Source: Allofournierella massiliensis
GTDB taxonomy: Bacteria > Bacillota > Clostridia > Oscillospirales > Ruminococcaceae
Reading direction: 5' to 3'
Assembly: GCF_004345265.1 (NCBI RefSeq)
Contig: NZ_SLUM01000009.1
Span: 1-64,000, forward strand
Length of the DNA: 64,000 nucleotides
Shown here piece after piece: positions 18,646-34,323 of the stretch. The first letter of the stretch is position 1. Each line of letters opens with the position of its first letter. The position numbers were made by a program, and so were the translations under genes. The notes beneath the pieces are model-generated. The model had not been told where the DNA came from. It did not search any database and saw only the letters and a program-made list of their open reading frames with translations.

Positions 18646-19857
18646 TCAGCGGGCCAGGATCTCGTCGATCAGCTGATCCACCATCATCAGGCAACGGGGC
18701 AGATGGAAGGGGCCCTTGAAGGTGGAACCCTTGCAGGCAGGCTCGGTGGGCTTGCCGTCGCGGCGCAGGTAGCCGTACCAGTCGCCGTACTCGGGATCGC
18801 TGAACACCTTCTTGCAGTACTCCAGAGTCTCATCGAAGATCTTCAGATACTTCTCATCCTGGGTATCGCGGTAGATCATCATGCTGGCGATGAGCAGCTC
18901 GTTGTGAGGCCACCACAGCTTCATGTCATGCTCGTAAGCCTCCGGGGGCAGACCCTTGCAGTCGATGAAATACAGCAGGCCGCCGTACTCCTTGTCCCAG
19001 CCGCCTTCGTAAGCGTAATCGAACAGGGTCTGAGCCTTCTTGCGCAGCTCCTCGTCGCCAGTGTGCTTGGCCTGCTCCATCACGAACCAGCTGCACTCGA
19101 TGTCGTGGCCGGGGTTGACCACACGGCCGGCGGTGTAGTCCATCTGCAGCTCGCCGTTCATGCCAACCGTCTCCAGAGTGCACTTCAGTTCGGGCTTGAA
19201 GTGATACTTGAAGATGGTCTCACAGCACTCCTTGGCGCGTGCTTCGTACAGCGCGTTGTTTTCGGGGTCACAACGGCGCATCACGGCGGTGATGTTCAGG
19301 TAGATCATGGGATCAGCCAGAGCGCGGCCGGTGCGGGTCTCGGGGATGGTCTTGGGGCCCATGCCGGTGGGATCCTTGATCAGGCCGTTGTTCAGCTGAT
19401 AGATCAGCTCGTAGGCGCGGCGGGCGCGCTCGATGCACTCCTTCTCACCGGTCACGCCGTAGTACTCGGCGTTGGCGATGGCGTAGAAGCCTTCAGAGAA
19501 GCAGTAACGGCGCTGACGCAGAGGCTTGCCGTCGGCGGTCACGGTGAAGTACATGCGGTCGCCGGCTTCCCGGTTGATGCAGTATTTCTCCATGAAGTCC
19601 AGGCAGCTCTTGGCCGCATCCAGCCACTCCTGCTTTTTGCCGTATACATGGCACAGGTAGGAGAAGGTCCAGGCGCAGCGGCCCTGGAACCAGACGCTCT
19701 TATCGGTGCTGAACAGCTTGCCGGTGCGGTCCAGGCAGGTGTAAACGCCACCATGCTCGTGATCCATGCCGTTCTTCAGCCAGAAGTTCACGCTGCGCTC
19801 CAGCTCCTCGCGAACCCACTTCTGATACTCTTTCAATTGCTCTACATGCTTATCCAT
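18646..19857 (-). CDS. N-acylglucosamine 2-epimerase (AGE family)
   Basis: 403-aa (alpha/alpha)6-barrel epimerase, expected to interconvert ManNAc and GlcNAc. Family features include HGGVYTCLDRTG near residue 38, KSVWFQGRCAWTFSYL, the YCFSEGFYAIA segment, PGHDIECSW with its conserved His, and KLWWPHNELLIA near the C-terminus. It is the last gene of an operon that also encodes NanA, so ManNAc from sialic acid is the likely substrate; cellobiose 2-epimerases share the fold. The ATG at 19857 has AAGGAG 11 bases upstream; a GTG three codons earlier is too close to it. Confidence 0.88.
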   Translation of the reverse strand: MDKHVEQLKEYQKWVREELERSVNFWLKNGMDHEHGGVYTCLDRTGKLFSTDKSVWFQGRCAWTFSYLCHVYGKKQEWLDAAKSCLDFMEKYCINREAGDRMYFTVTADGKPLRQRRYCFSEGFYAIANAEYYGVTGEKECIERARRAYELIYQLNNGLIKDPTGMGPKTIPETRTGRALADPMIYLNITAVMRRCDPENNALYEARAKECCETIFKYHFKPELKCTLETVGMNGELQMDYTAGRVVNPGHDIECSWFVMEQAKHTGDEELRKKAQTLFDYAYEGGWDKEYGGLLYFIDCKGLPPEAYEHDMKLWWPHNELLIASMMIYRDTQDEKYLKIFDETLEYCKKVFSDPEYGDWYGYLRRDGKPTEPACKGSTFKGPFHLPRCLMMVDQLIDEILAR

Positions 19858-19917
19858 GATAATCACAACTCCTTGTGCGAAGCGGCCGGAAAACAGCCGC
19901 TTTTTAAAATCTCTGAA

Positions 19918-19962: not shown

Positions 19963-20880
19963 TCAGCAGAACTTGGCAATGGCCTCGTCGATCATCTTGG
20001 CGCACTTCTTGACCTGCTCCATATCCTCGGGGAACAGGTTGGGCAGGGGCTTGCGAACGCCGCCGATGTCCAGATTCTCGCGGATGCGCAGGATCTCCTT
20101 CATCACAGCGTACAGGTTGCCCTTGCAGGCGCACATGGCGTAGATGATGGCGTCGATGGCGTACTGAACCTCGGCAGCTTCCTTGACCTTGCCGGCCTTC
20201 AGCAGCTCGTCAGCCTTCAGCAGCAGCTCGGGCATTACAGCGTAGGTACCGCCGATGCCGCCGTCAGCGCCCATGGCGCGGCCGGAGATGAACTGCTCGT
20301 CGGGACCGTTGAATACAACAAAGTCCGGGCCGCCTTCCATCTTGAACATCTGGATGTCCTGTACGGGCATGCTGCTGTTCTTCACAGCGGCAACGCGGGG
20401 GTTCTTGCGCATCTCGCGGAACAGGGGCATGGTCAGGGCCACGCCGGCCAGCTGCGGGATGTTGTAGATCACGAAATCGGTGTTGGGAGCAGCGGAGGAA
20501 ATGTCGTTCCAGTACTGAGCGATGGCATGCTCGGGCAGCTTGAAGTAGATGGGAGGAATGGAGGCAATGGCGTCAACGCCCAGGCTCTCGGCATGAGCAG
20601 CCAGCTCCATGCTGTCGGCAGTGTTGTTGCAGGCCACATGGGCAATCACGGTCAGCTTGCCCTTGGCTTCGCTCATCACAGCCTCCAGGGTCTGCTTGCG
20701 CTCTTCCTTGCTCTGGTAAATGCACTCGCCGGAGGAACCGCAAACGTATACGCCCTTAACGCCCTTCTTGATGAAGTAGCGGGTCAGCTCTTTGGTGCGC
20801 TCAACGCTGATGTTGCCTTCGTCGTCATAGCAGGCGTAAAACGCGGGAATAATGCCCTGGTACTTGGAAATGTCTTTCAT
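19963..20880 (-). CDS. nanA: N-acetylneuraminate lyase
   Basis: Class I aldolase that cleaves Neu5Ac to ManNAc and pyruvate. The 305-aa TIM barrel has GSSGE at residues 48-52 (carboxylate-binding loop), Tyr139 in YNIPQLAGVALT, and Lys167 in AAVKNSS as the Schiff-base lysine; these match Tyr137 and Lys165 of the E. coli enzyme. The family also contains dihydrodipicolinate synthases, but the YNIP...VALT pattern and the neighbours (epimerase, YhcH, transporters, RpiR regulator) favour NanA. Fourth-from-last step in a long co-directional operon. Confidence 0.93.
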   Translation of the reverse strand: MKDISKYQGIIPAFYACYDDEGNISVERTKELTRYFIKKGVKGVYVCGSSGECIYQSKEERKQTLEAVMSEAKGKLTVIAHVACNNTADSMELAAHAESLGVDAIASIPPIYFKLPEHAIAQYWNDISSAAPNTDFVIYNIPQLAGVALTMPLFREMRKNPRVAAVKNSSMPVQDIQMFKMEGGPDFVVFNGPDEQFISGRAMGADGGIGGTYAVMPELLLKADELLKAGKVKEAAEVQYAIDAIIYAMCACKGNLYAVMKEILRIRENLDIGGVRKPLPNLFPEDMEQVKKCAKMIDEAIAKFC

Positions 20881-20948: not shown

Positions 20949-21398
20949 TCAGGCCCGCACTTTAAACACAGCTTTCTGTACGTGTGCCTCACCGTTCAGC
21001 TGCACCTTTACCATGTGCACGTCCTCGGGGAATACCACCAGAACGTCACCGGGGTGCATGGTGAACCAGGTCTCCACCGGGCCTTCGTAACCGATGAAAT
21101 CGGTGGCTTCATCCCGGGTGGTGGCCTTCAGACGGGAAACATCGGTCACACCGATCTTTTCCTCGCCGCTGAGCAGCACATGGATGTCGGCATACTGGGC
21201 GTGTCCCTCCCAGGCGGCCTTCTCCAGCGGCAGCGTGTCGTAATCAAAACGGTTGATGTAAACGTTGTCGCCGTCCACATCGTTGCGGCCGAACTGCAAC
21301 TGACTCAGGTCGGCGGTTTTCAGATAGCGGATGGCGGTGTCCAGTGCGTCACTTACGCCCAGGTAGCGCTCCATCTGCTGGTAATTGGTATAAATCAT
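20949..21398 (-). CDS. YhcH/YjgK/YiaL-family protein (NanQ-type anomerase), copy 1
   Basis: 149-aa DUF386 beta-sandwich protein. Family members near nan genes are linked to sialic-acid mutarotation (NanQ). Visible family features are the central EGHAQYADIHVLLSGEE motif and FPEDVHMVKV near the C-terminus, with conserved His/Glu metal-site residues. Its ATG overlaps the stop of the flavoprotein gene as ATGA, so the two are translationally coupled. A second, divergent copy is encoded at 29239-29709. Confidence 0.85.
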   Translation of the reverse strand: MIYTNYQQMERYLGVSDALDTAIRYLKTADLSQLQFGRNDVDGDNVYINRFDYDTLPLEKAAWEGHAQYADIHVLLSGEEKIGVTDVSRLKATTRDEATDFIGYEGPVETWFTMHPGDVLVVFPEDVHMVKVQLNGEAHVQKAVFKVRA

Positions 21399-23041
21399 TG
21401 TTTTTCAGACCTCTCTTCTGCAAGGTTCTGTTCAAAGGCGGCGCGGGCTGTGCTGCCCTCCAGCCGAACCAGAATCCGCCGCTCCATGGCAGGATTCCGT
21501 TCCGGGTAGTCCGCCCGGTAGTGGGAACCGCGGCTCTCGGTGCGCATGCACTGCGCGCTGAGAATGGCCTGTGCCAGGTGCAGCTGCGCCCACAGCCGGC
21601 GGCTGGCCGCGATCTGCGTGGCGTCGTCGCCTTCGGTAAACGCGCATCCGTCTGCCAGCTGCGCAAGGCGCTCCATGCCCTGCCGCAGCGCTTCGCCGGT
21701 ACGAACCACCATGCCGCATTCGCTCATCACGTCCTGCATCCGGCGGCGGCGCTCGGCCTGATCCGGAATAATCCGGGCGTCAAATTCCACCGGGCCATCT
21801 GCCCTGGGCACGGGCTGTGCTGCCGCAAAAGCCGCCGCACTCTCGCCCGCTTTTCTGCCGAACACCAGCCCGTTGGCGGTGGAAAGACCGCCGATCCGAT
21901 CCGCGCCATGCATGCCGCCGGTCACCTCACCGCAGGCAAACAGCCCGGGCACTCCGGTAAAACCGTTGGGATCGATGCGCACACCGCCATTGGCCGCATG
22001 GGCAAAGGGAGCAATCTGCACCGGGTCATCCATGGTCAGATGCTTTTTCTCCCACAGCCAGTCAAAGTAAGTACGCACGAACTCAGGCGTGTTTTCCCGG
22101 ATTTCAGGGCCGTAGGTCACGGTAACTCCCTGCTCCGGCGCGGCCTGCGCGGCTTTCACCATGGCCAGATCCACCCGCCTGGAAATAAGCCGGCTGGTGA
22201 ACGGCCCGTGGGTGGACCGGCATTCCAGAAGGGCCTGCCGGTCCGGTTCGTTCTCCAGAATATCCCTTCCGTCCGGCCCTGTCAAGCGGGTGTAGCGGAA
22301 GGTTTTTTCGTTGAAAATGGTTTTGCGGCAGGGGTTCAGGTAACCGGGCATCATCTGCATGAACTCCAGATTCACCAGCTCCGCCCCGGCTTCCAGCGCC
22401 AGCCACTGGCCGGCGCCAGCCACATCATCGGTGGTGAGGCGATCCCGGAACAGGCCGCCATAACCGCCGGTGGCCAGCACCAGCGCACCGCACCGGATGG
22501 CGGTCAGCTCTTTGCCGCAGCAGACCACTGCACCGCTCACCCGTCCGTCGGTTTTGATCAGCTGCAGCAGCTCGCAGCCGGGCAGCTGCTCCACGCCGGA
22601 TTCCTCCATTTTGCGGGAGAACACCTGGCGCATACTGTCGAACAGCAGACCGTTCCAGCTGCGGTGCTTGCGGTCAAAACAGGGAATAAAATCCTTTTGA
22701 TTCTGGTCGGCAGCAGCCTTCAGCTGAACGCCCATGGCCTTCACGCCCTCGATGGCCGGGGCAATGCCCGCCACAAAGGCCCGTACCATGGCTTCATCCG
22801 CCATGCCGCAGCCAACCTCCAGAATGCTCTGAACCAGATCCTCCTGGTCGGCTTCGTTTTCCGGCCCGATCAGCCCGAGACCCCAGGTTCCAGGGTAGAA
22901 GCTGGAGCCGGAGAACACCGGGCCACTGCTTGCCAGAATCACCGAACGGCCGGCCACCGCCGCAGCAAGGGCCGCCATGATTCCGGCAATGCCAGAGCCG
23001 ACCACCAGCACATCACAGTGCCTTGAATATTTCAGCCGCAT
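21395..23041 (-). CDS. FAD-dependent oxidoreductase of the FrdA / aspartate-oxidase family
   Basis: 548-aa flavoprotein. The dinucleotide fold GSGIAG is at residues 15-20. Near the middle, STHGPFTSRLISRR aligns with the substrate-Arg segment of L-aspartate oxidase/fumarate reductase, and AHAANGGVRID with their active-site His-GGV loop; ACGEVTGGMHGADRIGG and NGLVFGRKAG close the FAD domain. The substrate is unknown. It starts 1 bp after the oppF-like stop and overlaps the YhcH gene by 4 bp, so it is embedded in the sialic-acid operon. It is too divergent to be called NadB, and no quinolinate synthase gene is near. Confidence 0.78.
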   Translation of the reverse strand: MRLKYSRHCDVLVVGSGIAGIMAALAAAVAGRSVILASSGPVFSGSSFYPGTWGLGLIGPENEADQEDLVQSILEVGCGMADEAMVRAFVAGIAPAIEGVKAMGVQLKAAADQNQKDFIPCFDRKHRSWNGLLFDSMRQVFSRKMEESGVEQLPGCELLQLIKTDGRVSGAVVCCGKELTAIRCGALVLATGGYGGLFRDRLTTDDVAGAGQWLALEAGAELVNLEFMQMMPGYLNPCRKTIFNEKTFRYTRLTGPDGRDILENEPDRQALLECRSTHGPFTSRLISRRVDLAMVKAAQAAPEQGVTVTYGPEIRENTPEFVRTYFDWLWEKKHLTMDDPVQIAPFAHAANGGVRIDPNGFTGVPGLFACGEVTGGMHGADRIGGLSTANGLVFGRKAGESAAAFAAAQPVPRADGPVEFDARIIPDQAERRRRMQDVMSECGMVVRTGEALRQGMERLAQLADGCAFTEGDDATQIAASRRLWAQLHLAQAILSAQCMRTESRGSHYRADYPERNPAMERRILVRLEGSTARAAFEQNLAEERSEKQ

Positions 23042-23042
23042 C

Positions 23043-24053
23043 TCAGGCCTTCGCCGCCTCTTTGTCATACAGATGGCAGGCGACCATGTGGCCCTCTGCA
23101 CCGTGGTGCACCATGGCGGGATCCACAGTCTTGCAGATTTCCATGCACTTGGGGCAGCGGTTGTGGAAGGCACAGCCACTGGGCTTGTGGATGGGGCTGG
23201 GTACCTCGCCCTCCAGCACCTGACGCTTCTTGGTCTTGTGAATGTCAGGCACAGGAATGGCGCTCAGCAGCGCCTGGGTGTAGGGATGCAGGGGCTCGTC
23301 GTACAGCGCACGGCTGTCAGCGATTTCCACAATCTTGCCCAGGTACATAACCACGATACGATCGGACATATACTGCACAACGCTCAGGTCGTGAGCAATG
23401 AACAGGTAAGTCAGGTTCATTTCCTTCTGGATGTCCTTCATCAGGTTCAGAACCTGCGCCTGAATGGACACGTCCAGCGCGGAAACGGGCTCATCGCACA
23501 CCAGAACTTCGGGCATAACCTCCAGCGCACGGGCAATGCACAGGCGCTGGCGCTGGCCGCCGGAGAACTCGTGGGGGTAACGCATCAGGTAGTCGGGCTG
23601 GATATTAACCATCTTCAGCACCTTCTGCATCACGGCCTCACGGTCAGCCTCGCTCTTCACACCATGAACCTTCAGGGGTTCCTCGAAGGAGGTGTAAATC
23701 TTCTTCTGGGGGTTCAGGGCGGAATAGGGATCCTGGAATACCATCTGCACCTTGCGGCGGAACTGGAACATTTCCTCCTTGTTGAACTTGGTCACGTCCT
23801 TGAACTCGCCGCCGTAGTTGAACAGCACCTTGCCGCCGGTGGGCTTCTCCAGCATCATAATGGTCTTGCCGAAGGTGGACTTGCCGCAGCCGGACTCGCC
23901 CACGATGCCCAGGGTCTCGCCCTTGTACACTTCCAGGCTCACGTCGTCCACGGCCTTCACATGGCCCACGACTTTCTTGAAGGCGCCCTTGGTGATGGGG
24001 AACCAGGTTTTCAGGTTTTCGATCTTAAAGATAACTTCACGATTTTCGCTCAT
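23043..24053 (-). CDS. Peptide-type ABC transporter ATP-binding protein (OppF/DppF-like)
   Basis: 336-aa ATPase with Walker [13 protein letters not shown] signature SGGQRQR and Walker B ending in CDEPVSALD. The C-terminal oligopeptide-transporter extension carries the cysteine cluster [15 protein letters not shown]. It pairs with the OppD-like ATPase encoded 2 bp upstream. In this context it probably energises uptake of sialic acid or a sialoside rather than peptides, like the peptide-type Sat systems known elsewhere; this is inferred from the operon only. Confidence 0.88.
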
Positions 24054-24055
24054 GA

Positions 24056-25081
24056 TCAGTCCACCTCCGGGAAGTTCTTATACTTCAAGCAGCGAACCCG
24101 GTGGCCGGGGCTGATCTCGAAGGTCGGGATATCCTTTTCACGGCAGGCGGCGGTGCATTCGGGGCAGCGGTCCGCGAACTCACAGCCGGGCTTCAGGTTG
24201 GCCGGGTTGGGGGTGGAGCCGGGAATGGTCTCCAGCTTCTGGCCGTCGGCCAGGCCCAGCACGGGCACGCTGCGCAGCAGCGCCTTGGTGTAGGGGTGAG
24301 AGGTGCGGTCGAACACATCCTCCAGGCTGCCGAATTCCACCACGCGGCCCATGTACATGACGCAGACCTCATCGGCCATCTCGGCCACCAGGCCCATGTT
24401 ATGGGTGATCAGCACGATGGACTTGCCTTCCTTCACCTGCAGATCCTTGAGCAGTTCCATGATCTGTGCCTGGATGGTAACGTCCAACGCGGTGGTGGGC
24501 TCGTCGCAGATGATCAGCTCCGGGTTGCAGATCATGGCGATGGCAATCACCACGCGCTGCTTCATGCCGCCGGAGAACTGATGGGGGTAGTTGTCGATGC
24601 GCTCCTCGGGATCGGGAATGCCCAGCTTGCGGAACATTTCCAGCACCTTCACACGGGCTTCCTTCTTCTTCATGCCGGTGTGCTGGATCAGACCCTCAGC
24701 CACCTGGTCACCCACCTTGTAAACGGGGTTCAGGCTGGACATGGGATCCTGGAACACCATGGACATGTCCGGGCCGCGCAGAGCGCGCATTTCAGGGCCG
24801 TTGGGCTCCTTGATCTTTTCCAGATGATACTCGGTCACCTTGCCGTCCCGCAGGGCGTTGTACTGGATGTTGTCCGCTTCGACCCGGGCGTTCTTGCCCA
24901 GGAAACGCATGATGGAGTTCATGGTCACGCTCTTGCCGCAGCCGGACTCACCCACAACCGCCAGCGCGGTGCCGCGCTTCAACTGGAAGGAAACGTTCTT
25001 TACGATCCGGATCTCCTTGCGGTCGGAAATAAAGGTGGTATTCAGATTTTTTACGTCTAAGATGATCTCTTTTGTATCCAT
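24056..25081 (-). CDS. Peptide-type ABC transporter ATP-binding protein (OppD/DppD-like)
   Basis: 341-aa ATPase with Walker [10 protein letters not shown], signature SGGMKQR, Walker [11 protein letters not shown], and the C-terminal cluster [15 protein letters not shown] common to OppD/DppD. It partners with the OppF-like subunit (2-bp gap) and the two permeases encoded upstream. Confidence 0.88.
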
Positions 25082-25093
25082 ACTGCCGCCTCC

Positions 25094-25990
25094 TTACTGC
25101 TGTTTCGGGTCCAGAACGTCCCGCAGGCCGTCGCCGAAGAAGTTGATGGCCAGAACGAACAGGCTGATGGCAAGACCGGGGAATACCCAGATCCACCACT
25201 GGTTGGTAACCACGGAAACAGACTTTGCAGCGTTCAGGATATTGCCCCAGGTGGGGGTGCTGTCGGCAACGCCCAGGCCGATGAAGCTCAGGGAAGCCTC
25301 CTGCAGGATGAAGAACGCCACGTTGGTGGTGGTGGAAACGATGATGGGGCTCATCACGTTGGGCAGGATCTGCTTGAACATGATGTTGCTGCGCTTCATG
25401 CCAAAAGCTTCGCAGACCTTAACGTAGGTCTCGTTCTTCAGGCTCATGAACTCGTTACGCACCATACGGAAGGTGGTCATCCAGCCGGTGACCACGAAGA
25501 TGAACAGCAGGTTGCCCAGACCGCGCTGGTTGAGAATGGCAACCAGCATCATAACCAGAACCAGCTGGGGGAATGCCTGGAAGATCTCGGAAATACGTAC
25601 GATCACGCCGTCTACCCAGCCGCCGAAGTAACCGGCGATGGCGCCCAGCGCTGCGCCGATCACGCTGCTGAGCACGGCGCAGAACACGCCGATCAGGATG
25701 GAATAGCAGCCGCCGATCAGCACACGGGCCAGCAGGTCACGGCCGATGGTGTCGGTGCCGAAGATGTGGCCTGCCTCGGGAGCGGCTTTCATGTTGGTCA
25801 GGTCGGGGGTGGCGTAGTCCACGCCCATAATGGCGCCGATAATGCAGGCCAGGGTCATGACTACCACGACCACCAGACCAAACACAGCCAGCTTGTTGTT
25901 CAAAAACTTGCGGACATTCTTTTTCAGCAAAGAGGAGGCCGCGCTTTTGTTTTGTTCCTTGATGCTTGCTGCCGCATTGGGATTGCTCAT
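25094..25990 (-). CDS. Peptide-type ABC transporter permease (OppC/DppC-like)
   Basis: 298-aa inner-membrane permease with a soluble N-terminus, a first helix near residues 35-57, the HIFGTDTIGRDLLARVLIG motif typical of DppC/OppC, and the EAA loop EAFGMKRSNIMFKQILPN. Six membrane segments are expected. Strong AGGAGG ahead of the start. Confidence 0.88.
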   Translation of the reverse strand: MSNPNAAASIKEQNKSAASSLLKKNVRKFLNNKLAVFGLVVVVVMTLACIIGAIMGVDYATPDLTNMKAAPEAGHIFGTDTIGRDLLARVLIGGCYSILIGVFCAVLSSVIGAALGAIAGYFGGWVDGVIVRISEIFQAFPQLVLVMMLVAILNQRGLGNLLFIFVVTGWMTTFRMVRNEFMSLKNETYVKVCEAFGMKRSNIMFKQILPNVMSPIIVSTTTNVAFFILQEASLSFIGLGVADSTPTWGNILNAAKSVSVVTNQWWIWVFPGLAISLFVLAINFFGDGLRDVLDPKQQ

Positions 25991-26009: not shown

Positions 26010-26972
26010 TTATTCGCCCAGCCGCACGCGCGGGTCCATGATGGCGTTCAGCACGTCCACCATGAAGGAGCACACCAGCATGGTGGCGGCGATGATCAGG
26101 GTGGTCACCATAACCACGTTGTAGTCGTTGGCAACGATGGCGTTGGTCATTGTCATACCGATGCCGGGGTAGGAGAACACGCTCTCAACAACCACGGAGC
26201 CGCCGATCAGGGTGGGGATACGGAACATCAGAATCACCAGAACGGGCTTCATGGCATTGCGGAAGCCGTGCTTTAAGTAAACCTTCCACTCGGGGATGCC
26301 CTTGCTGCGGGCGGTCTTGATGTAGTCGCTGTTCAGCACGTCCAGCATGGTGTTGCGGGCGTAACGCATCAGAACCGCCACCATGCCGATGGTCAGGGTG
26401 GCCACAGGCAGGAACAGATGCATGAAGGCGTCCACAAAAGCGTTGGTGGCATCCGGGCTGACACGGTTCGCCGCCGGGAAGATGCCCAGCTTGATGGAGA
26501 AGATCTGGATCAGGATGATGCCCACCAGGAACTGGGGAACCGCCTGGCCCAGAACGGCCAGCACGCGGCCGATGTAGTCGATGATGCCGTTCTGACGGAT
26601 GGCGGAGATGATGCCGATGCCGATGCCGATGATGGCGGACAGCACCAGGGAATAACCGGCCAGCTCCAGGGTGTAGGGCATGCGGACCGCCAGGGTACTG
26701 GCGATGGAGGTACCGTCGGTGATGGAATAACCGAAGTCACCGTGCAGCATGTTGCCCAGCCAGTTGAAATACTGAACGATCAGAGGATCGTTCAGGCCCA
26801 GCTCCTCACGCAGCTGCTCCACCACCTCGGGGCTGGCGGAAAGCTGTTCGGGACTGAGCATGAAGTTGATGGGATCGATACCGGTCGCCTGCAGGCCGAA
26901 GAACACGATCAGGCTGATGACGAGCAGCATCGGGATCATCAGAAGAAGCTTTTTGAGAATGAACTTTAGCAT
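26010..26972 (-). CDS. Peptide-type ABC transporter permease (OppB/DppB-like)
   Basis: 320-aa permease starting MLKFILKKLLLMIP, with the long periplasmic loop after helix 1 (GLNDPLIVQYFNWLGNMLHG), the EAA-type loop KTARSKGIPEWKVYLKHGFRN and the FSYPGIGM motif near the end, all typical of OppB/DppB. The ATG at 26972 has GGAGTGAG upstream; 40 extra upstream codons are open but would run through the hairpin after the binding-protein gene. Confidence 0.88.
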   Translation of the reverse strand: MLKFILKKLLLMIPMLLVISLIVFFGLQATGIDPINFMLSPEQLSASPEVVEQLREELGLNDPLIVQYFNWLGNMLHGDFGYSITDGTSIASTLAVRMPYTLELAGYSLVLSAIIGIGIGIISAIRQNGIIDYIGRVLAVLGQAVPQFLVGIILIQIFSIKLGIFPAANRVSPDATNAFVDAFMHLFLPVATLTIGMVAVLMRYARNTMLDVLNSDYIKTARSKGIPEWKVYLKHGFRNAMKPVLVILMFRIPTLIGGSVVVESVFSYPGIGMTMTNAIVANDYNVVMVTTLIIAATMLVCSFMVDVLNAIMDPRVRLGE

Positions 26973-27042
26973 GTTCTCACTCCAATCTCGGTGATTCAAA
27001 TGGGGCGAAGCACAGGCCCGTCGCAGGAGCCTGCCGAAAAGG

Positions 27043-27128: not shown

Positions 27129-28733
27129 TCAGGCCATTTCCCAGTTGGCGAAATCCAGATCGCAGCTGTACAGGGGGTTGCAGAAGGTGACGCCCTCGGG
27201 GATCTTCACGTTGCTGCTGGTGAACACATAGTTACCAACGGTGAACAGAGGAACCTTGTACAGCTTCTCCTGCTCCAGATCCTGCAGGGTCTTCAGAGCA
27301 GCATTCTTCTCTTCCTCGGTAGTGGCAGCAGAGTAGGTGGCAATGGCCTCGTCGAAGGAAGTGTCGCCGCCCCAGATTTTCTGGAACAGAGCATCGGTGC
27401 TCAGGTACTCGCTGTACCACTCGTCCAGAGAGAAGGAGCTCTTGCCCTTGAAGCCGATGTCGTACTGGCGGGTAGTGAACAGATCGGTGGTACCGTCGTT
27501 GGACAGGGTGGACTCAACAGTCAGGCCAGCCTGCTCCAGGTAGTAAACGATGGTGTTGATCAGGTCGATGCTGGTCTGATCGTTGTTGTAGTAGCAGATG
27601 CGGATGGGACGGCTCATGTCGTAGCCGGAAGCAGCGATGTCAGCCTTGGCCTTCTCTGTGTCGAAGGTGTAGGTGAAGCCGTTGTAAGCGGGATGAGAAT
27701 CGGGCACGCCGGAGTTCAGCACGGTTGCGCTGGGATACAGGGTGGCCAGAGTGGCGCGGTCGATGGCTTCCATGATAGCCTTGCGGACCTCAACGTTCTG
27801 CATGGCCTCGTTCTGGGTGCCGTCGGTGCCTTCCATGTTAAAGATGAAGTACTTGTAGAACAGTACGTCAACCTCGTGAGAGGTGTAGTTGCTCATGCCC
27901 TGCATGGCTTCCACCAGGTCGGTGGCGTTGCCGTACAGGTAGTCGGCGTTGCCGGACTGAGCGGCGGTCAGGTAATCGTTCACATAGGAAACGGTAACCT
28001 TCTGGATCTTGGCGGGAGTGCCCTCATAGTTGGGGTTGGGAACCATGGTGAAGTAGTTGCCCACGTTGAACTCGCCAACCATGTAGTAACCGCTGGTTAC
28101 GGGGTTCTGCCAGAAGGTGGTGTCGGCGTCCAGCTTCAGAACGTCCACGTTCTCCAGGCTGTGCTTGGGCAGGATGGCGAACTGGCTCAGAATCTGAGGC
28201 AGGGAGCTGTAAGGCTCGCTCAGGGTCAGGGTGATCACGTTGCCCTCGGCGCTCTTGTCAGCGATCTTCTTGAACGCGGAGGTGTAGATGGAGTTTACCT
28301 GAGTGGTCTGCAGAGCGGCATCGATGGACCACAGAACGTCGTCAGCGGTCAGGGGCTCGCCATCGCTCCACTTCAGGCCGTCCTTCAGGGTGATGGTGTA
28401 GGTCAGGCCGTCCTCGCTGACCTCATAGCTCTCGGCCAGGTCGGGGCTTGCCTCGTTCAGGGTGCTGTCCGAAATGAACAGGCTGCGGAACATCAGGTTG
28501 GTGGGCATGGTACGATTCAGCCAGGGGATGGGCACCTTGTCGTCGGTGCTGCTGCCGTCGGTGGTGGACAGAATCAGTTTCAGGGTGCCATCGCTGGCGG
28601 CAGCGGCAGTGCCGGTGCTGGCTGCGCCGCTGGTTGCGGTGGAACCGCTGGTGGTGGTGGTCGAGCCACCGCCGCAGGCTACCATGGAAAGTGCCATGGC
28701 AGCTGCGAGAACAAGTGCAAGAACTTTCTTCAT
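27129..28733 (-). CDS. Solute-binding lipoprotein, family 5 (OppA/DppA-like)
   Basis: 534-aa extracytoplasmic binding protein. The signal peptide ends in the lipobox MVAC (Cys at about residue 20), followed by a Gly/Ser/Thr/Ala linker and a family-5 fold: DLAESYEVSEDGLTYTITLKDG near residue 95, WSDGEPLTADDV, and the later YPSATVLNSG segment. First gene of operon 1. Family-5 proteins bind peptides, nickel, or sugars; the operon suggests sialic acid or a sialic-acid derivative. GAAGGAGG precedes the ATG. Confidence 0.87.
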   Translation of the reverse strand: MKKVLALVLAAAMALSMVACGGGSTTTTSGSTATSGAASTGTAAAASDGTLKLILSTTDGSSTDDKVPIPWLNRTMPTNLMFRSLFISDSTLNEASPDLAESYEVSEDGLTYTITLKDGLKWSDGEPLTADDVLWSIDAALQTTQVNSIYTSAFKKIADKSAEGNVITLTLSEPYSSLPQILSQFAILPKHSLENVDVLKLDADTTFWQNPVTSGYYMVGEFNVGNYFTMVPNPNYEGTPAKIQKVTVSYVNDYLTAAQSGNADYLYGNATDLVEAMQGMSNYTSHEVDVLFYKYFIFNMEGTDGTQNEAMQNVEVRKAIMEAIDRATLATLYPSATVLNSGVPDSHPAYNGFTYTFDTEKAKADIAASGYDMSRPIRICYYNNDQTSIDLINTIVYYLEQAGLTVESTLSNDGTTDLFTTRQYDIGFKGKSSFSLDEWYSEYLSTDALFQKIWGGDTSFDEAIATYSAATTEEEKNAALKTLQDLEQEKLYKVPLFTVGNYVFTSSNVKIPEGVTFCNPLYSCDLDFANWEMA

Positions 28734-28861: not shown

Positions 28862-28890
28862 ATGGTACCATCTATGAAAAATTTTTTCAA
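28862..28890 (-). promoter_or_regulatory. Promoter of sialic-acid operon 1
   Basis: TTGAAA (28885-28890) and TACCAT (28862-28867), spacer 17 bp. The operator dyad overlaps the -35 and spacer. The transcript start region contains GAGTAAAGC, also found after the promoter of operon 2. Confidence 0.7.
28875..28889. promoter_or_regulatory. Operator 1, probable RpiR-family regulator site
   Basis: Perfect 15-bp dyad TGAAAAATTTTTTCA, identical to the site at 33214-33228 and at the same position relative to the promoter. Binding here would block RNA polymerase. Confidence 0.72.
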
Positions 28891-29170
28891 TTATGAAATC
28901 CTACGAATCTACCCGAGGCAAATTTGTCATTTTGCACAAGCCATTCTTTCAAAAGTCATTTTTTGGCTATCTGTGGGCAATTAACAGCTTTGAATTGTTA
29001 TTTTTTGTTACTTTTGACGCTTCCATTGAAACGATTTTTCTGATTCATCCGCTTCCCGTTTCTCCTTCCCTCTTTTTTCATTTCCAGCAGAAATGAAAAT
29101 TTTTTTCATCATTTGGCCCCATTCTCCGTCGCTTTTGCAGATTTTTCACTCATTTTTTCCATTTAAACCT
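28891..29170. other. AT-rich upstream region of operon 1
   Basis: No gene seen. It contains TTGCACAA (28932-28939; TTGTGCAA in the transcribed direction), at the same distance from its operator as a copy upstream of operon 2, and a fourth operator-like dyad at 29094-29108. Confidence 0.5.
29094..29108. promoter_or_regulatory. Operator-like dyad, auxiliary copy
   Basis: TGAAAATTTTTTTCA differs from the operators at 28875 and 33214 at one position. It lies about 200 bp upstream of the operon 1 promoter and has no promoter of its own, so it could be a looping site or chance in AT-rich DNA. Confidence 0.35.
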
Positions 29171-29175
29171 CACAG

Positions 29176-29222
29176 ACAAAGGGTCCCGCCGCATTCCCTT
29201 TTTCGGAATGTGGCGGGACCCT
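29176..29222 (-). terminator. Terminator of sialic-acid operon 2
   Basis: AAGGGTCCCGCC plus CATTCC pairs with GGAATG plus GGCGGGACCCTT (29179-29222), a long stem with one mismatch, just after the second YhcH gene. Confidence 0.75.
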
Positions 29223-29238
29223 TACCCGCAAGCCCTGA

Positions 29239-29709
29239 TCAGACCTCGTCGTAATATTCGTTGCTCAAAATCTTGAACACGGCTTTTTTCACATGGGTGC
29301 AGCTGCCGTTGCTCAACGTGGGCATGTGCGGTTCGCCGGCCAGAAACAGCGCAAATTTGCCGCCGCCCAGATGACCCAGGTCGCCCACCGGGCCATCTCC
29401 GAAGCCGATGTCTGCCGCATCGTCAAAGCCTTTTTCGTCCTGGCAGTAGCTGCTGGGCACTTCGAAGTCCTCACAGCCCTCGATGTCCATCTGCAGATCC
29501 ATATACTTATGATGCACTTCATAATGGGCGCCTGCTTCCGGGCGGGTATCCGCTTCCATCACATTCACGAAAACCCGGCTGCCGTCGATCTCGGTACGGC
29601 CCAGGGGCAGCTCCTCCACCTTGTGGGTTTTGGCCCATTCGATCACCTTGTCCAGGCCTTTGGAAAAGCCCTTGTAGGCGCTCAGATTGCTGAAATTATC
29701 GTAGATCAT
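29239..29709 (-). CDS. YhcH/YjgK/YiaL-family protein (NanQ-type anomerase), copy 2
   Basis: 156-aa DUF386 protein, clearly divergent from copy 1 but sharing MIY at the start, the LPLGRTEIDGSRVFVNV strand, the His-containing VHHKYMDLQMDIEG motif, EPHMPTL, and the HVKKAVFKI ending. By family knowledge it would speed sialic-acid or acyl-sugar anomerisation or hydrolysis. Last gene of operon 2, but separated from the permease gene by a strong terminator. AAAGGAGAG precedes the ATG. Confidence 0.85.
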   Translation of the reverse strand: MIYDNFSNLSAYKGFSKGLDKVIEWAKTHKVEELPLGRTEIDGSRVFVNVMEADTRPEAGAHYEVHHKYMDLQMDIEGCEDFEVPSSYCQDEKGFDDAADIGFGDGPVGDLGHLGGGKFALFLAGEPHMPTLSNGSCTHVKKAVFKILSNEYYDEV

Positions 29710-29760
29710 GGTATTCTCTCCTTTTCCGGCCACCTGTTCACACAGCAGCCGATATTGACA

Positions 29761-29792
29761 AAAAAACCAGGTGGCGGCAGCCACCTGGTTTT
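29761..29792 (-). terminator. Terminator between the permease gene and yhcH copy 2
   Basis: AAAACCAGGTGGC (29763-29775) pairs perfectly with GCCACCTGGTTTT (29780-29792); six or more T residues follow on the minus strand. No clear promoter lies between it and yhcH copy 2, so that gene depends on read-through. Confidence 0.75.
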
Positions 29793-29815
29793 GGGAAACA
29801 AACGGGTTCTGAAAA

Positions 29816-30649
29816 TCAACCCTTTACCGCACCCATGGTGATGCCCTGAGTGAAGTACTTCTGGAACATCAGGAACACGGCCAGGATGGGAATGGCAGCA
29901 ACCGCAGCACCGGCCATGATCAGGCCGAAGTCGGTGGCCATTTCAGCCTGCAGGTTCGCAATACCCAGCGAGATGGTCAGGCTGGTGTTCTTGGTCAGCA
30001 TGATCAACTGCATGAAGTAATCGTTCCAGGCGGTGATGAAGGTGAAGATGGCCAGAGCACCGATACCGGGCTTGACCATGGGCAGAATGATCTGCACAAA
30101 GGTGCGGATCTCGCCGGCGCCGTCGATGCGGGCAGCTTCCAGCATCTCGTTGGGGATGCCTTCGCTGAACTGCTTCATCAGGAATACGCCGAAGGGCCAG
30201 CCGACGGTGGGCAGGATCACGGCCCACAGGGTATCGTGGATGCCCAGGAAGGACATCTCCTTCAGCAGGGGGATCAGGATAACCTGCTTGGGCAGAGCCA
30301 TGGCGCAGACGATCAGGCTGAAGATCACGGTACGGCCGTAGAATTTCTTCTTGGCCAGCACATAGCCGGCCATGGCGGCAGTGATGCAGGTCAGGGCCAT
30401 GGCAACCACAGCAATAAAGATGGTGTTCCACAGCCACAGCAGAGCCGGGTTGTCAAACAGCTTCTCGTAGTTGGCCAGAGTGGGGTTGGTGGGGAACCAC
30501 TGGGGAGTGGGGGTGTTGATGTCCGCCGCAGTCTTTACGGAACCGGTGAAGATCCAGTACAGGGGGAACACCAGGAACACGGTCAGAATGGCAAGGATGA
30601 TGCCGGAGATGACCTTATAAGGAGTCATTTTGCCAGTTACAGTATTCAT
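29816..30649 (-). CDS. CUT1-type sugar ABC transporter permease (MalG-like)
   Basis: 277-aa permease with six predicted helices. The EAA loop is EAARIDGAGEIRTFVQIILPMVKPG, typical of MalG-type subunits, and FPLYWIFTGSVK follows helix 1. It lies 13 bp after the MalF-like gene. No ATPase gene is in operon 2; CUT1 systems often share a general MsmX-type ATPase encoded elsewhere. Confidence 0.9.
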   Translation of the reverse strand: MNTVTGKMTPYKVISGIILAILTVFLVFPLYWIFTGSVKTAADINTPTPQWFPTNPTLANYEKLFDNPALLWLWNTIFIAVVAMALTCITAAMAGYVLAKKKFYGRTVIFSLIVCAMALPKQVILIPLLKEMSFLGIHDTLWAVILPTVGWPFGVFLMKQFSEGIPNEMLEAARIDGAGEIRTFVQIILPMVKPGIGALAIFTFITAWNDYFMQLIMLTKNTSLTISLGIANLQAEMATDFGLIMAGAAVAAIPILAVFLMFQKYFTQGITMGAVKG

Positions 30650-30662
30650 CTTCTATGCCTCC

Positions 30663-31607
30663 TTAGTCGTTGCCCTTGCCGGCTACCTTGAACTGCAGGG
30701 CAGACAGCAGAGCGATGATGATGGCCAGGATCACGCCCATGGCGTTGCCGTAGCCGTACTGATACAGCTTGAAGGCCTGGTAGTAGATGTAGTACATGAT
30801 GGTATCGGTGGCATGGTTGGGGCCGCCGCTGGTCAGCAGCTGAATCAGAGCGAAGCACTGGAAGCTGTTGATGGTGGTGATAACCAGGATGTACAGGGTG
30901 GTGGGAGTGATCTGGGGCCACATGATCTTCCAGAAGGTCTGCAGCTTGGTGGCACCGTCCACCTGAGCAGCCTCGGTCAGGCTGGCGTCCACGTTGCCCA
31001 GAGCGGAAACGTACAGAACAATGGGCTGACCGATGCTGGTGGTGAACAGGATCAGGATGATACACCAGATGGCAGTCTTGGGGTTGCCCAGCCAGTTCAC
31101 GTTGTTGTCGATCACGCCAACGCCCTTGGCCACATAGTTGATGATGCCGTAGTAGTTGTTGAACATCCACTTCCACACCACGGTAACGGCAACGGTACCG
31201 GTTACAACGGGCAGATAGAAGATGCAGCGGAAGAAGGAGCAGGAAGCTGCCTTCATTTTATAAATGGCCGAAGCCACCCACAGAGAGAACGCGGTAACAG
31301 TGGGCACGGCCACCACCACGATCAGTGCGGTATTCATCAAAGCCTTCCAGAAAATATCATCCTGGAACATCTTGATGTAGTTGCCAAATCCAACGAAAAT
31401 ATCCTCACGGGCCATGGTGGAATCGAAGAAGCTCGTCCACAGGCACATGACCATGGGGATCAGAACAAAGCCGACGAAAACGATCAAAAACGGCAACAGG
31501 AAAAGGTAGGCCGCAATGGTCTCACGGCGTGCCTCCGCCCGGCTGATGCCAAGGCCGGAGCGCTTGCTGGGTCCTTTTACAGGCTGCTTGGTTGCAGATG
31601 TAGTCAA
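30663..31607 (-). CDS. CUT1-type sugar ABC transporter permease (MalF-like)
   Basis: 314-aa permease with a basic cytoplasmic N-terminus (about 30 residues), six predicted helices, and the EAA loop EAAQVDGATKLQTFWKIMWPQ. Second gene of operon 2, after the binding-protein gene. With the sialic-acid neighbours, a SatABC/NanBCD-like sialic-acid importer is the best guess. Confidence 0.9.
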   Translation of the reverse strand: MTTSATKQPVKGPSKRSGLGISRAEARRETIAAYLFLLPFLIVFVGFVLIPMVMCLWTSFFDSTMAREDIFVGFGNYIKMFQDDIFWKALMNTALIVVVAVPTVTAFSLWVASAIYKMKAASCSFFRCIFYLPVVTGTVAVTVVWKWMFNNYYGIINYVAKGVGVIDNNVNWLGNPKTAIWCIILILFTTSIGQPIVLYVSALGNVDASLTEAAQVDGATKLQTFWKIMWPQITPTTLYILVITTINSFQCFALIQLLTSGGPNHATDTIMYYIYYQAFKLYQYGYGNAMGVILAIIIALLSALQFKVAGKGND

Positions 31608-31689
31608 ATGGATCCTCTCCTCTCATCTCTCACAGGTTCCTCTAACGCCGGAACAGCGGGTGAATCATGTTCATGCCTTTTAAGAAAGA

Positions 31690-31733
31690 GCGCACCTCTC
31701 TTTTTGCGCATCGGGCGAAAAAGAGAGGTGCGC
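31690..31733 (-). other. Strong stem-loop between the binding-protein and permease genes (operon 2)
   Basis: A perfect 16-bp stem, GCGCACCTCTCTTTTT (31690-31705) with AAAAAGAGAGGTGCGC (31718-31733). No long T run follows on the minus strand. Same position as the stem-loop in operon 1. Confidence 0.75.
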
Positions 31734-31770
31734 GTCCCTACTCTAACGAATCAGTCGGAAGGGCTGTTCC

Positions 31771-33117
31771 TTAGCCGATGGCGGCGTTGGAAGTCTCAAC
31801 GAACTTGTCAGCAGCAGCCTGAACGTCGCTGCCGTTGCCAACTTCCTGCAGCATGTTCCACCAAGCAGTGCGCTGCTCGGTCCAGCCGCCGGTCACGTTG
31901 TAGTAGTCACCCATGTTGGGCAGGAAGGTCTGGAAGGTAGCCATACGGGTCTCATCCTCGGTGCCGGCATACACGTTGCCGAAGGAAGAACGCACGGGGA
32001 AGAAGCCGGTAGCCTGCACGCTGGCAGGGCCCTGAGTGGCGTCGTCACAGATGAACTTGATGAAGGTCTTGGCAGCCTCGATCTTGGCGTCGTCGCCGTT
32101 GTCGAAGATACCGAAGCCCCAGATACCGCCGCACAGCTCAACCTTGCCGTCATCGGTGGGGAAGTTCATGGCGTAGGGAGTGAAGGTAACCTGCTCAGCG
32201 TAGGTAGCCTCGTTGGAAGCGTTCCAGCAGAAGGTCATGGCAGCAGTGCCGTTGGCGAACATCTGCAGCTCGTCGGAAGCCTGCAGAGCGGGATCGAAGG
32301 TCAGGGCCTTCTCGTTGTTCAGCTTCTGCAGCAGCTCCAGAGCCTTCACGTTCTCGGCGCTGTTGGCAGTGTAAGCGGTGTGATCAGCGTTGGTGTAGGT
32401 GCCGCTGTACAGGTTGTTCACCAGAGCGCGGGTGCCCTGGTCACCGCCCTGGCCGCCGCAGTAAACGATGGCGGGGGTCATAACCTTACCGCTGTCGCGC
32501 AGGGTTTCCAGAGCCTTCACGAAGTTATCGGTGGTCCAGGTGCGGGTCTCCTCGTCGATGTACTGCAGAGCACCGGTCTCCTTAAACAGCTCGTAGTTGA
32601 TGGCCATGTTGTGGGCGGTCATGCACAGGGGGTACTCGTAGTACTTGCCGTCGGCACCCTTGCAGGCATTCACAACAGCCTCGCTGGTCTTGCTGATGTC
32701 GGCAGTGGCCTCTTCGGTCCACAGGTCGCTCAGATCAACCATCAGGCCCTTGGCGCCCCAGTTGGATACCAGACGCTCGGGACCCTCGAAGATGATGTCG
32801 GGGGTGTTCTTGGCTTCGATGGCGGTGGTTACCTTATCGTCGCCGTTGGTGTAGTCCAGGTACTCCACATTGACCTTGATGTCGGGGTACTGCTTGTTGA
32901 ACTCAGCGATGAAGCCGTTCACGGTCTCCTCTTTCTGCCAGGAGCCGATGGGGTAGGTCCACAGGGTGATCTCGGTAGCAGCGCCGGAAGAAGCGGTGCT
33001 GGTGCCGGTGCTGGCAGCGGTGGAACCAGAGGTGGCGGTGCTGGTGCTGCCGCCGCCGCAAGCGACCATGGACAGCGCCATTGCGCCGGCCATGACAAGT
33101 GCTAACGCTTTTTTCAT
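31771..33117 (-). CDS. Solute-binding lipoprotein, family 1 (sugar-type)
   Basis: 448-aa extracytoplasmic protein. Signal peptide with lipobox MVAC (Cys about residue 20), a Ser/Thr/Ala/Gly linker to about residue 50, then a family-1 sugar-binding fold (ITLWTYPIGSWQ, FNKQYPDIKVNVEY). First gene of operon 2; AAGGAGGAG precedes the ATG. The substrate is inferred from the locus as sialic acid or a sialoside such as 2,7-anhydro-Neu5Ac. Confidence 0.88.
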   Translation of the reverse strand: MKKALALVMAGAMALSMVACGGGSTSTATSGSTAASTGTSTASSGAATEITLWTYPIGSWQKEETVNGFIAEFNKQYPDIKVNVEYLDYTNGDDKVTTAIEAKNTPDIIFEGPERLVSNWGAKGLMVDLSDLWTEEATADISKTSEAVVNACKGADGKYYEYPLCMTAHNMAINYELFKETGALQYIDEETRTWTTDNFVKALETLRDSGKVMTPAIVYCGGQGGDQGTRALVNNLYSGTYTNADHTAYTANSAENVKALELLQKLNNEKALTFDPALQASDELQMFANGTAAMTFCWNASNEATYAEQVTFTPYAMNFPTDDGKVELCGGIWGFGIFDNGDDAKIEAAKTFIKFICDDATQGPASVQATGFFPVRSSFGNVYAGTEDETRMATFQTFLPNMGDYYNVTGGWTEQRTAWWNMLQEVGNGSDVQAAADKFVETSNAAIG

Positions 33118-33200
33118 TTGAAATTCTCCTCCTTAAGGATTTTTCAGTCTGTTCGACTCGATCAGGGCACGGAAAAACCATGCCGTCTCGCTTTACTCAA

Positions 33201-33229
33201 ATTCTACCATTCGTGAAAAATTTTTTCAA
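33201..33229 (-). promoter_or_regulatory. Promoter of sialic-acid operon 2
   Basis: TTGAAA (33224-33229) and TAGAAT (33201-33206), spacer 17 bp. It matches the operon 1 promoter closely, including the operator overlap and a downstream GAGTAAAGC. Confidence 0.72.
33214..33228. promoter_or_regulatory. Operator 2, probable RpiR-family regulator site
   Basis: TGAAAAATTTTTTCA, identical to operator 1. A flanking TTCA-N4-TGAA half-dyad is also shared, suggesting a longer site. Confidence 0.72.
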
Positions 33230-33300
33230 TTGTGAAGTCCACCTATCTTTTCTATGAATATTCAGTGAACTTGCACAACAGCTTTTTAGGCCTTTTTTTC

Positions 33301-33329
33301 TTGTGATTCCGTCACTTTTGCCTTATAAT
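33301..33329 (+). promoter_or_regulatory. Promoter of the RpiR-family regulator gene
   Basis: TTGTGA (33301-33306) and a perfect TATAAT (33324-33329), spacer 17 bp, on the plus strand, divergent from operon 2 and about 140 bp before the regulator start. Confidence 0.65.
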
Positions 33330-33409
33330 ATATAGTACTGTTGATTCTATTTTGTAATGATTACATAAAGTTACAAAATATTCGCATTCTCTTCTTTCCA
33401 CATTATGTT

Positions 33410-33423
33410 TGAAAAATTTTTTC
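33410..33423. promoter_or_regulatory. Operator-like site in the regulator leader
   Basis: TGAAAAATTTTTTC followed by G instead of A, one base off the operators of the two transporter operons. It lies downstream of the regulator promoter and could act as an autoregulatory roadblock. Confidence 0.55.
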
Positions 33424-33468
33424 GCAGGAAACAGCGGAAAGGAGCATTTTCCGGGGAGTGTATCGCTT

Positions 33469-34323
33469 ATGTTAGATGTTATGTATCAAATTAATACCCA
33501 CTACGATCAATTCACCCCTTCTTCCCGTAAGATCGCAGATTATCTGCGCGAGCACTGTGCCCAGGCGCAGTATCTGTCCATCTCCGGGCTGGCCAGCGAA
33601 TGCGGGGTGGCCGAGGCCACTATCTTCCGGTTCTGCAAGCAGCTGGGTTTCGGCGGCTACAACGAATTCAAGCTCGCCCTGGCCAAGTCCAGTATTCTGA
33701 ATCAGCCCAACCCCTATGCGGCCTACGGCGAGCTCACCCCCGAGGACAACACCGTGGAGGCCATGTGCCGCCGCCTGTATGAAGCCAATATTCAGGCCCT
33801 GAACCAGACTCTGTCGCTTCTGGACGAGGCAGCGCTGATCAAGGCGGGCGATCTTCTGGCCGGGGCCGGCAAAATTCTTGGCCTGGGCTACGGCGGCAGT
33901 ATGGCCACCGTGCGGGAGGCCTGGAGCCGTTTTCTCACCGTGACCCCAAAATTCTTTACCATTGAAGACAACCACATGCAGATCATGGCCGCCAGCCTGC
34001 TGGAGGAAAACGACGTGATTCTGTTTGTTTCCTATTCCGGCTCTACCCGGGATGCGGAGGATGTGCTCCGGCCCGCAAAGGCCCGCGGCGCAAAGATCGT
34101 GCTGATCACCCACTATGCCGACTCCCCTGCTGCCAGCATGGCGGACGTGGTGCTGCTGTGCGGCGGTCACGAACGCCCGCTGCAGACCGGCAGCATTGCT
34201 GCCAAGATGGCCATGCTGTTCGTGGTGGACATGCTGGTAAACGAGTTCTGCCGCCGCGACATGGATACCACCATGCGCAACAAGGATCTGACCGCCAACG
34301 CACTGGCCATCCGCCACCTGTAA
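33469..34323 (+). CDS. RpiR-family transcriptional regulator (probable sialic-acid regulator)
   Basis: 284-aa regulator: an N-terminal helix-turn-helix (about residues 20-75; LSISGLASECGVAEATIFRF) and a C-terminal SIS sugar-phosphate-binding domain (about 110-260; GLGYGGSMATVREAW, FVSYSGSTRDAEDVL). RpiR proteins with SIS domains often control amino-sugar use, including NanR of several bacteria. It is divergent from operon 2, and matching operators at both transporter promoters support a local repressor. The ATG at 33469 follows GGGGAG; a longer frame from 33409 would translate the operator and was rejected. Confidence 0.85.
   Translation: MLDVMYQINTHYDQFTPSSRKIADYLREHCAQAQYLSISGLASECGVAEATIFRFCKQLGFGGYNEFKLALAKSSILNQPNPYAAYGELTPEDNTVEAMCRRLYEANIQALNQTLSLLDEAALIKAGDLLAGAGKILGLGYGGSMATVREAWSRFLTVTPKFFTIEDNHMQIMAASLLEENDVILFVSYSGSTRDAEDVLRPAKARGAKIVLITHYADSPAASMADVVLLCGGHERPLQTGSIAAKMAMLFVVDMLVNEFCRRDMDTTMRNKDLTANALAIRHL

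Follow-up and report, generated by a model that had tools for sequence, protein, structure and literature searches.

A 15-bp inverted repeat in the first 64,000 nucleotides of an Allofournierella massiliensis contig (NCBI RefSeq assembly GCF_004345265.1, NZ_SLUM01000009.1; this whole stretch is called the window) is very probably the operator of the adjacent RpiR-family regulator, through which two transporter operons and the genes travelling with them would be co-regulated. The regulator gene is linked to genes for a NanA-like lyase, YhcH proteins, an N-acylglucosamine 2-epimerase (AGE) family protein and two ABC systems, and this gene content points to sialic acid as the likely substrate. 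The best reading of the locus is a NanR-type RpiR regulon in a commensal of the Gemmiger/Fournierella group; switches of a related kind have been described before in other bacteria. Co-regulation of sialic acid genes had been proposed in the initial annotation of this DNA, and it is supported by conservation of the sites in six species, by a rearranged locus in one of them, by the upstream regions of 7 of 11 distant regulator homologues and by a pair of sites before a sialidase gene.

The sites, the promoter geometry, their conservation and the gene context were all computed. The repeat has perfect arms (TGAAAAA/TTTTTCA) around a single unpaired base, and a sequence scan found the exact 15-mer at both places where it had been claimed, at 28875-28889 over the promoter of an opp-type operon (operator 1) and at 33214-33228 over the promoter of a sugar-type ABC operon (operator 2). 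Each copy overlaps a minus-strand -35 hexamer TTGAAA (28885-28890 and 33224-33229) that stands 17 bp from its minus-strand -10 (TACCAT at 28862-28867 and TAGAAT at 33201-33206), just as the initial annotation had it, and the common flanks it mentioned are TTCAYAATTGAA and GAGTAAAGC. A near copy in the rpiR leader (site 3), 196 bp from operator 2, does agree at 14 of 15 bases; it spans 33410-33424, its end having been put at 33423. A scan of the locus added a fourth, previously overlooked site, TGAAAATTTTTTTCA at 29094-29108, which lies 219 bp upstream of operator 1. The rpiR gene (33469-34323, plus strand) is divergent from the sugar-type ABC operon and has a putative promoter, TTGTGA-17-TATAAT (33301-33329, plus strand; read from the sequence, with TATAAT present in six of six species); site 3 falls about 75 bp downstream of the inferred rpiR start. 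Because the main operators overlap -35 hexamers, the geometry points to repression of both transporter operons, presumably by steric block of their promoters. The pairs of main operator and second site are about 200 bp apart, and by simple arithmetic the sites, spaced at 183-219 bp, do not share a single helical face, so that looping between them is weakly supported.

The whole genome (3,731,260 bases in 76 contigs) was scanned for further copies. The motif search that had been suggested found the exact 15-mer at two places in 3.73 Mb, both of them the promoters named above. With one mismatch allowed there are 14 places, four at the locus and 10 elsewhere (16 rows, vs 3 for a reversed-pattern control), and with two mismatches 52 rows vs 26; a pattern reduced to the arms, TGAAA-N5-TTTCA, returned 32 rows vs 4 for the control, the 32 rows representing 16 places, of which three are at the locus. 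When both intergenic regions (41% and 36% GC) were dinucleotide-shuffled 2,000 times, no shuffle contained even two sites with at most one mismatch, where four are observed, and any exact 15-mer common to the two regions appeared in 2 of the 2,000.

Conservation was followed in six genomes of the genus, the A. massiliensis genome (G000) included, with relatives drawn from a set that includes Gemmiger sp. An87, An50 and An194, an uncultured Oscillospiraceae bin and a Fournierella bin; a seventh genome, G197, in which a genome scan found no exact dyad, was left out of the alignment. Comparison of the same promoters in relatives, also an early suggestion, found the dyad, TTGAAA and the 17-bp spacer in 12 of 12 promoters, with a -10 that matches TATAAT at 4 or 5 of 6 bases in every case. 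Operator 2 is tied for the most conserved of the 338 15-base windows in its intergenic region, 14 of its 15 columns being invariant (mean 0.32). Operator 1, whose dyad is aligned in all six species, ranks fourth of 491 windows with 12 of 15 columns invariant (mean 0.20). The opp genes, the flavoprotein gene and the first YhcH gene are missing from the locus of G200 (L025/L071); its nanA-AGE pair comes after the second YhcH gene and has the same operator-promoter directly before it, which argues that the site accompanies sialic acid catabolism rather than any one transporter.

Beyond the genus, the regulator was traced through 14 homologue matches at E <=1e-60 in 13 of 197 genomes, 11 of them outside the genus. 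The 500 bp upstream of each distant homologue were scanned, and the best match in 350 bp was tested against 500 shuffles. Five of the 11 have the dyad with at most one mismatch, for which 0 or 1 of 500 shuffles was as good, and in two more the best site has two mismatches, which 10 and 16 of 500 shuffles equalled; all seven of these homologues adjoin genes for a substrate-binding protein, a permease or NanA. Among nine distant promoter rows, five show the 17-bp geometry, one has 16 bp, and three, namely two sites of G171 and the L051 site, have no such promoter; L051 was found through the motif itself and is excluded from the count of 11. A promoter pattern with an 18-bp spacer gave 8 matches in 8 of 396 genomes vs 1 for the reversed control; it does not pick up the promoters of the window itself and is uninformative on the 17-bp form.

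The regulon seems to be larger than the locus and to take in a sialidase gene. One of the 10 outlying copies, a one-mismatch dyad at C13:64251, is preceded at 32 bp by a two-mismatch dyad (15 + 17 + 15 = 47 bp), and the two copies lie 179 and 211 bp ahead of an open frame of 2,275 residues (L093 4431-11258), the sole gene with a BNR_2 match in its genome. The frame contains two BNR_2 stretches, an LPXTG match and two sialidase-like regions, of which one (about residues 733-1226) matches exo- and intramolecular trans-sialidases and the other (1279-1729) has the anhydrosialidase 4x47 as its best match; one LPXTG-type protein may thus combine two release chemistries. By arithmetic, ten near-copies would place one of their number within 300 bp of a particular gene with a probability of about 8e-4, and shuffles of the 350 bp of DNA upstream of the sialidase gene were as good in 5 of 500 cases here and in 2 of 500 in G137. 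In G137, G198 and G200 the tandem is present too, with an unchanged 17-bp gap and a single mismatch in each copy, and a weak single site, read by eye, is all that precedes the gene in G199, so that imperfect tandem sites are present in four of the five genus genomes that have the sialidase. At 1e-30, neither G025 nor G197 has a sialidase match.

Several observations weigh against the dyad as the operator of this regulator and against co-regulation through it. The secondary sites are moderately conserved, with 8 of 15 invariant columns for site 3 and 9 of 15 for site 4 (ranks 56 of 338 and 40 of 491). Site 3 is weak: its left arm, TGAAAA, is kept in all six species, and the last base of its right arm is never A in any of them. 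Site 4 has both arms intact at the 15-bp length in four of six species; the G198 copy has one extra base and the G025 copy is degraded. Four of the 11 distant homologues (L031, L037, L038 and L039) have no dyad in the upstream DNA scanned, among them L031, which is 57% identical to the regulator. Two of these four lie near weak matches to sialic acid genes, a sialidase for L038 and a sialidase with NanA for L039; L031 is accompanied by a YhcH gene on a short contig, and L037 by weak OppD/OppF matches only. The remaining adverse points are the outlying dyads, the similar promoter flanks and the sialidase promoter, and each bears on a different alternative.

The sialidase gene bears on the mode of action. 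No promoter could be placed over its sites, where steric block is not evident, and the pair lies upstream of the only -10-like sequence seen, TATCAT. For the NanR of Streptococcus pneumoniae (SpNanR), PMC12713135 places the sites of action about 55 bp upstream of the -35. With SpNanR an activator and no promoter found over the sialidase sites, the mode may not be repression everywhere, and a regulator that works as an activator or in mixed mode, as in S. pneumoniae, and not as a simple repressor, is the strongest of the alternatives, though an unlikely one: the transporter operators overlap the -35 in 12 of 12 cases, which is a blocking position.

The outlying dyads raise the question of whether the repeat is a regulatory site at all or an A/T-rich, UP-like element of strong promoters. 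Four of the 10 one-mismatch copies outside the locus (C7:90578, C16:48798, C21:96 and C45:14579) are A/T tracts just upstream of TTGACA promoters, which indicates that A/T-rich promoters generate look-alikes, and G199 has two exact dyads away from its nan locus (C8:17510 and C25:22556). A UP-like role for the nan dyads is nevertheless very unlikely, since they overlap the -35 in 12 of 12 promoters rather than standing upstream of it, since the exact form is confined to the locus in A. massiliensis (this is not so in G199), and since the dyad tracks one group of RpiR homologues and is absent from three paralogues and from 4 of 11 homologues. As candidate regulon members, the nine one-mismatch copies other than that of the sialidase were rejected, four being UP-like, others lying at a gene end or beside terminator-like sequence, and some (C19:73996 and C38:22050) showing no clear role. 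The two exact dyads of G199 were rejected too, one standing before a TTGACT hexamer like a UP element and the other having no clear role. As a separate observation, TGAAATATTTTTTCA occurs just upstream of TTGACA-17-TATAAT near contig ends, both in G000 (C21:96 and C45:14579) and in related genomes, and the promoters behind it are probably, we assume, those of ribosomal RNA operons.

The flanks of the two transporter promoters are alike beyond chance in most species (in G000, 32 of 60 positions upstream and 22 of 45 downstream), and a box that the initial annotation had overlooked, TTGTGCAA, occurs at the same distance in both promoters: measured between starts, it lies 49 bp upstream of the -35 both in the opp promoter (28932-28939, minus strand) and in that of the sugar-type operon (33271-33278, minus strand). 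Part of the sharing may therefore be duplication, and the likeness probably reflects shared ancestry of the promoters or a second factor. That promoter duplication, and not selection on the operator, accounts for the identity of the dyads is highly improbable: in G199 the downstream likeness is lost (12 of 45, p 0.77) and the dyad stays, even if the upstream flank is still alike at 32 of 60; the dyad is set in other flanks at sites 3 and 4, at the sialidase gene and upstream of the distant homologues; and duplication and selection are in any case not mutually exclusive. The box itself is exact in 10 of the 12 promoters of the six genomes, and stands at the same place with one mismatch in the other two, and its pattern has 17 genome-wide matches vs 5 for the reversed control. 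No common function was seen among 9 of 12 loci fetched (two being the window's own). The DNA upstream of nagA and nagB contains TTGTGCAA or TTGCACAA (similar boxes at L094 3848 and L095 5017), with no dyad directly upstream of either gene and a one-mismatch copy about 1.3 kb upstream of nagA. The box is possibly the site of a second regulator.

There remains the notion, to which we give very little weight, that some unlinked protein, for instance one of the RpiR paralogues, binds the dyad and that the neighbouring rpiR acts elsewhere. Four HTH_6 proteins were found in the genome. Against this notion, the dyad adjoins this rpiR in each of the six congeners and, with two-mismatch sites counted, in 7 of the 11 distant cases, and the three paralogues have divergent recognition-helix sequences and no dyad within 4 mismatches upstream, their best matches in 350 bp having 5, 5 and 7.

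The product of the linked rpiR gene has the HTH_6 (1.9e-23) and SIS (6.4e-19) domains, both above cut-off. Its closest solved relative by sequence is 4ivn (E 5.5e-28), which we take to be the NanR of Vibrio vulnificus, and it also matches the S. pneumoniae NanR structure 8tx9. Counting along the alignment, the phosphate-binding Ser/Ser/Thr of SpNanR are conserved, whereas the positions of the SpNanR ligand residues Arg148, Asp160 and Trp164 are taken here by Thr, His and Met. In PMC12713135, which names 8TX9, Arg148 is the stated reason why SpNanR does not bind N-acetylglucosamine 6-phosphate (GlcNAc-6-P). With Arg148 replaced by Thr and the phosphate residues kept, GlcNAc-6-P becomes a fair candidate effector. 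The pathway to N-acetylmannosamine 6-phosphate (ManNAc-6-P) was checked through the epimerase NanE (PF04131), with no search for the kinase; NanE was not detected in A. massiliensis and five others of the seven genus genomes (completeness 84-99%) and was found in one. The absence of a detectable NanE, together with an AGE gene in the operon, again suggests that the effector may be GlcNAc-6-P. The sole NanE detected in the seven genomes belongs to a second nan cluster of G200 (L120, G200:C33), which has its own RpiR paralogue, substrate-binding protein and NanA, and whose rpiR leader contains AGAAAAATTTTTTCA.

Binding, repression, the effector and looping, each less secure than the assignment of the operator, could be fitted together as follows. 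The dyad, TGAAAA-N3-TTTTCA, would be the operator of the adjacent SIS-domain, NanR-type RpiR protein. Without sialic acid, a dimer or tetramer of the regulator would occupy the -35 of both transporter operons and block RNA polymerase, and control of the opp-type operon would bring nanA and the epimerase along. The weaker copies about 200 bp upstream of the main operators (sites 4 and 3) might add occupancy or permit looping, and site 3 may also allow the regulator to brake itself. When the cell imports sialic acid and cleaves it, an amino sugar phosphate, probably GlcNAc-6-P, would bind the SIS domain and release the operator, and the distant tandem site would put the surface sialidase under the same control. 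A more elaborate version, which we regard as tentative and rather doubtful, has a NanR-type regulator rewired to a pathway that lacks NanE and begins with the epimerase, so that it would sense GlcNAc-6-P (or ManNAc without a phosphate) in place of ManNAc-6-P. Its operators would work in pairs, through loops of about 200 bp at the transporter promoters and a 47-bp, MurR-like tandem at the sialidase, and a second factor would sit on the TTGTGCAA box.

The closest published site found is the element GAAAAATATTTTC of Clostridium perfringens, 12 of whose 13 bases are, by our own comparison, as in the core here (PMC4509764). In that source, C. perfringens NanR is an RpiR-family protein that, like the regulator here, goes with nan genes and a secreted sialidase; it binds two promoters, those of nanE and nanI, that have GAAAAATATTTTC in common, and that NanR reads this element is a suggestion of the authors. 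The C. perfringens nan operon encodes NanE and NanK, whereas here NanE is undetected and an AGE-type epimerase stands in the operon. The dyad over the -35 of each transporter promoter, with a second copy about 200 bp away, as a predicted operator, also sets this locus apart. PMC12713135 supplies the other comparisons. S. pneumoniae NanR likewise belongs to the RpiR family and has half sites TGAAA/TTTCA, the phosphate residues and several sites per cluster, but its site is 18 bp long with half sites one base closer together, and it is an activator at about 55 bp upstream of the -35. V. vulnificus NanR is a repressor of a nan cluster in another phylum, with a minimal site that is not defined there. 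Escherichia coli MurR has two sites 17 bp apart with a 47-bp span, as at the sialidase here, but has another ligand and other genes, and its sites overlap the -35 and the -10.

A title search of the open-licence literature found nothing on this operator in this group, which is no proof of absence in print, and in the portion of PMC3658417 available Gemmiger formicilis figures in a similarity table only. What is offered here is a set of base-level sites for a sialic acid regulon in a group of gut commensals, a regulon that would tie two transporters, the lyase and an AGE-type epimerase to a surface protein in which two regions are sialidase-like. The locus also provides a testable case of a NanR-type sensor that would work where the usual ManNAc-6-P epimerase is not found.

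The remaining genes of the locus, assigned to families by Pfam and NCBIfam matches, are all on the minus strand. Behind operator 2 lie a sugar-type ABC substrate-binding lipoprotein (31771-33117; close to the solved sugar-binding protein 9rsi, E 1.4e-78), two ABC permeases (30663-31607 and 29816-30649) and a YhcH-family protein (29239-29709) that also matches an N-acetylneuraminate anomerase model below cut-off. Operator 1 is followed by a family-5 (Opp/Dpp-type) substrate-binding protein (27129-28733), an Opp/Dpp-type permease (26010-26978), a second such permease (25094-25990; named from translation and gene order), OppD-type and OppF-type ATPases (24056-25081 and 23043-24053; both named from translation), an FAD-binding flavoprotein (FAD_binding_2; 21395-23041), a second YhcH-family protein (20949-21398), the N-acetylneuraminate-lyase-like NanA (19963-20880; DHDPS family, best match PRK04147, below cut-off) and the AGE family protein (18646-19866), presumed to convert ManNAc to GlcNAc. 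The flavoprotein inside this sialic acid operon resembles L-aspartate oxidase and fumarate reductase.

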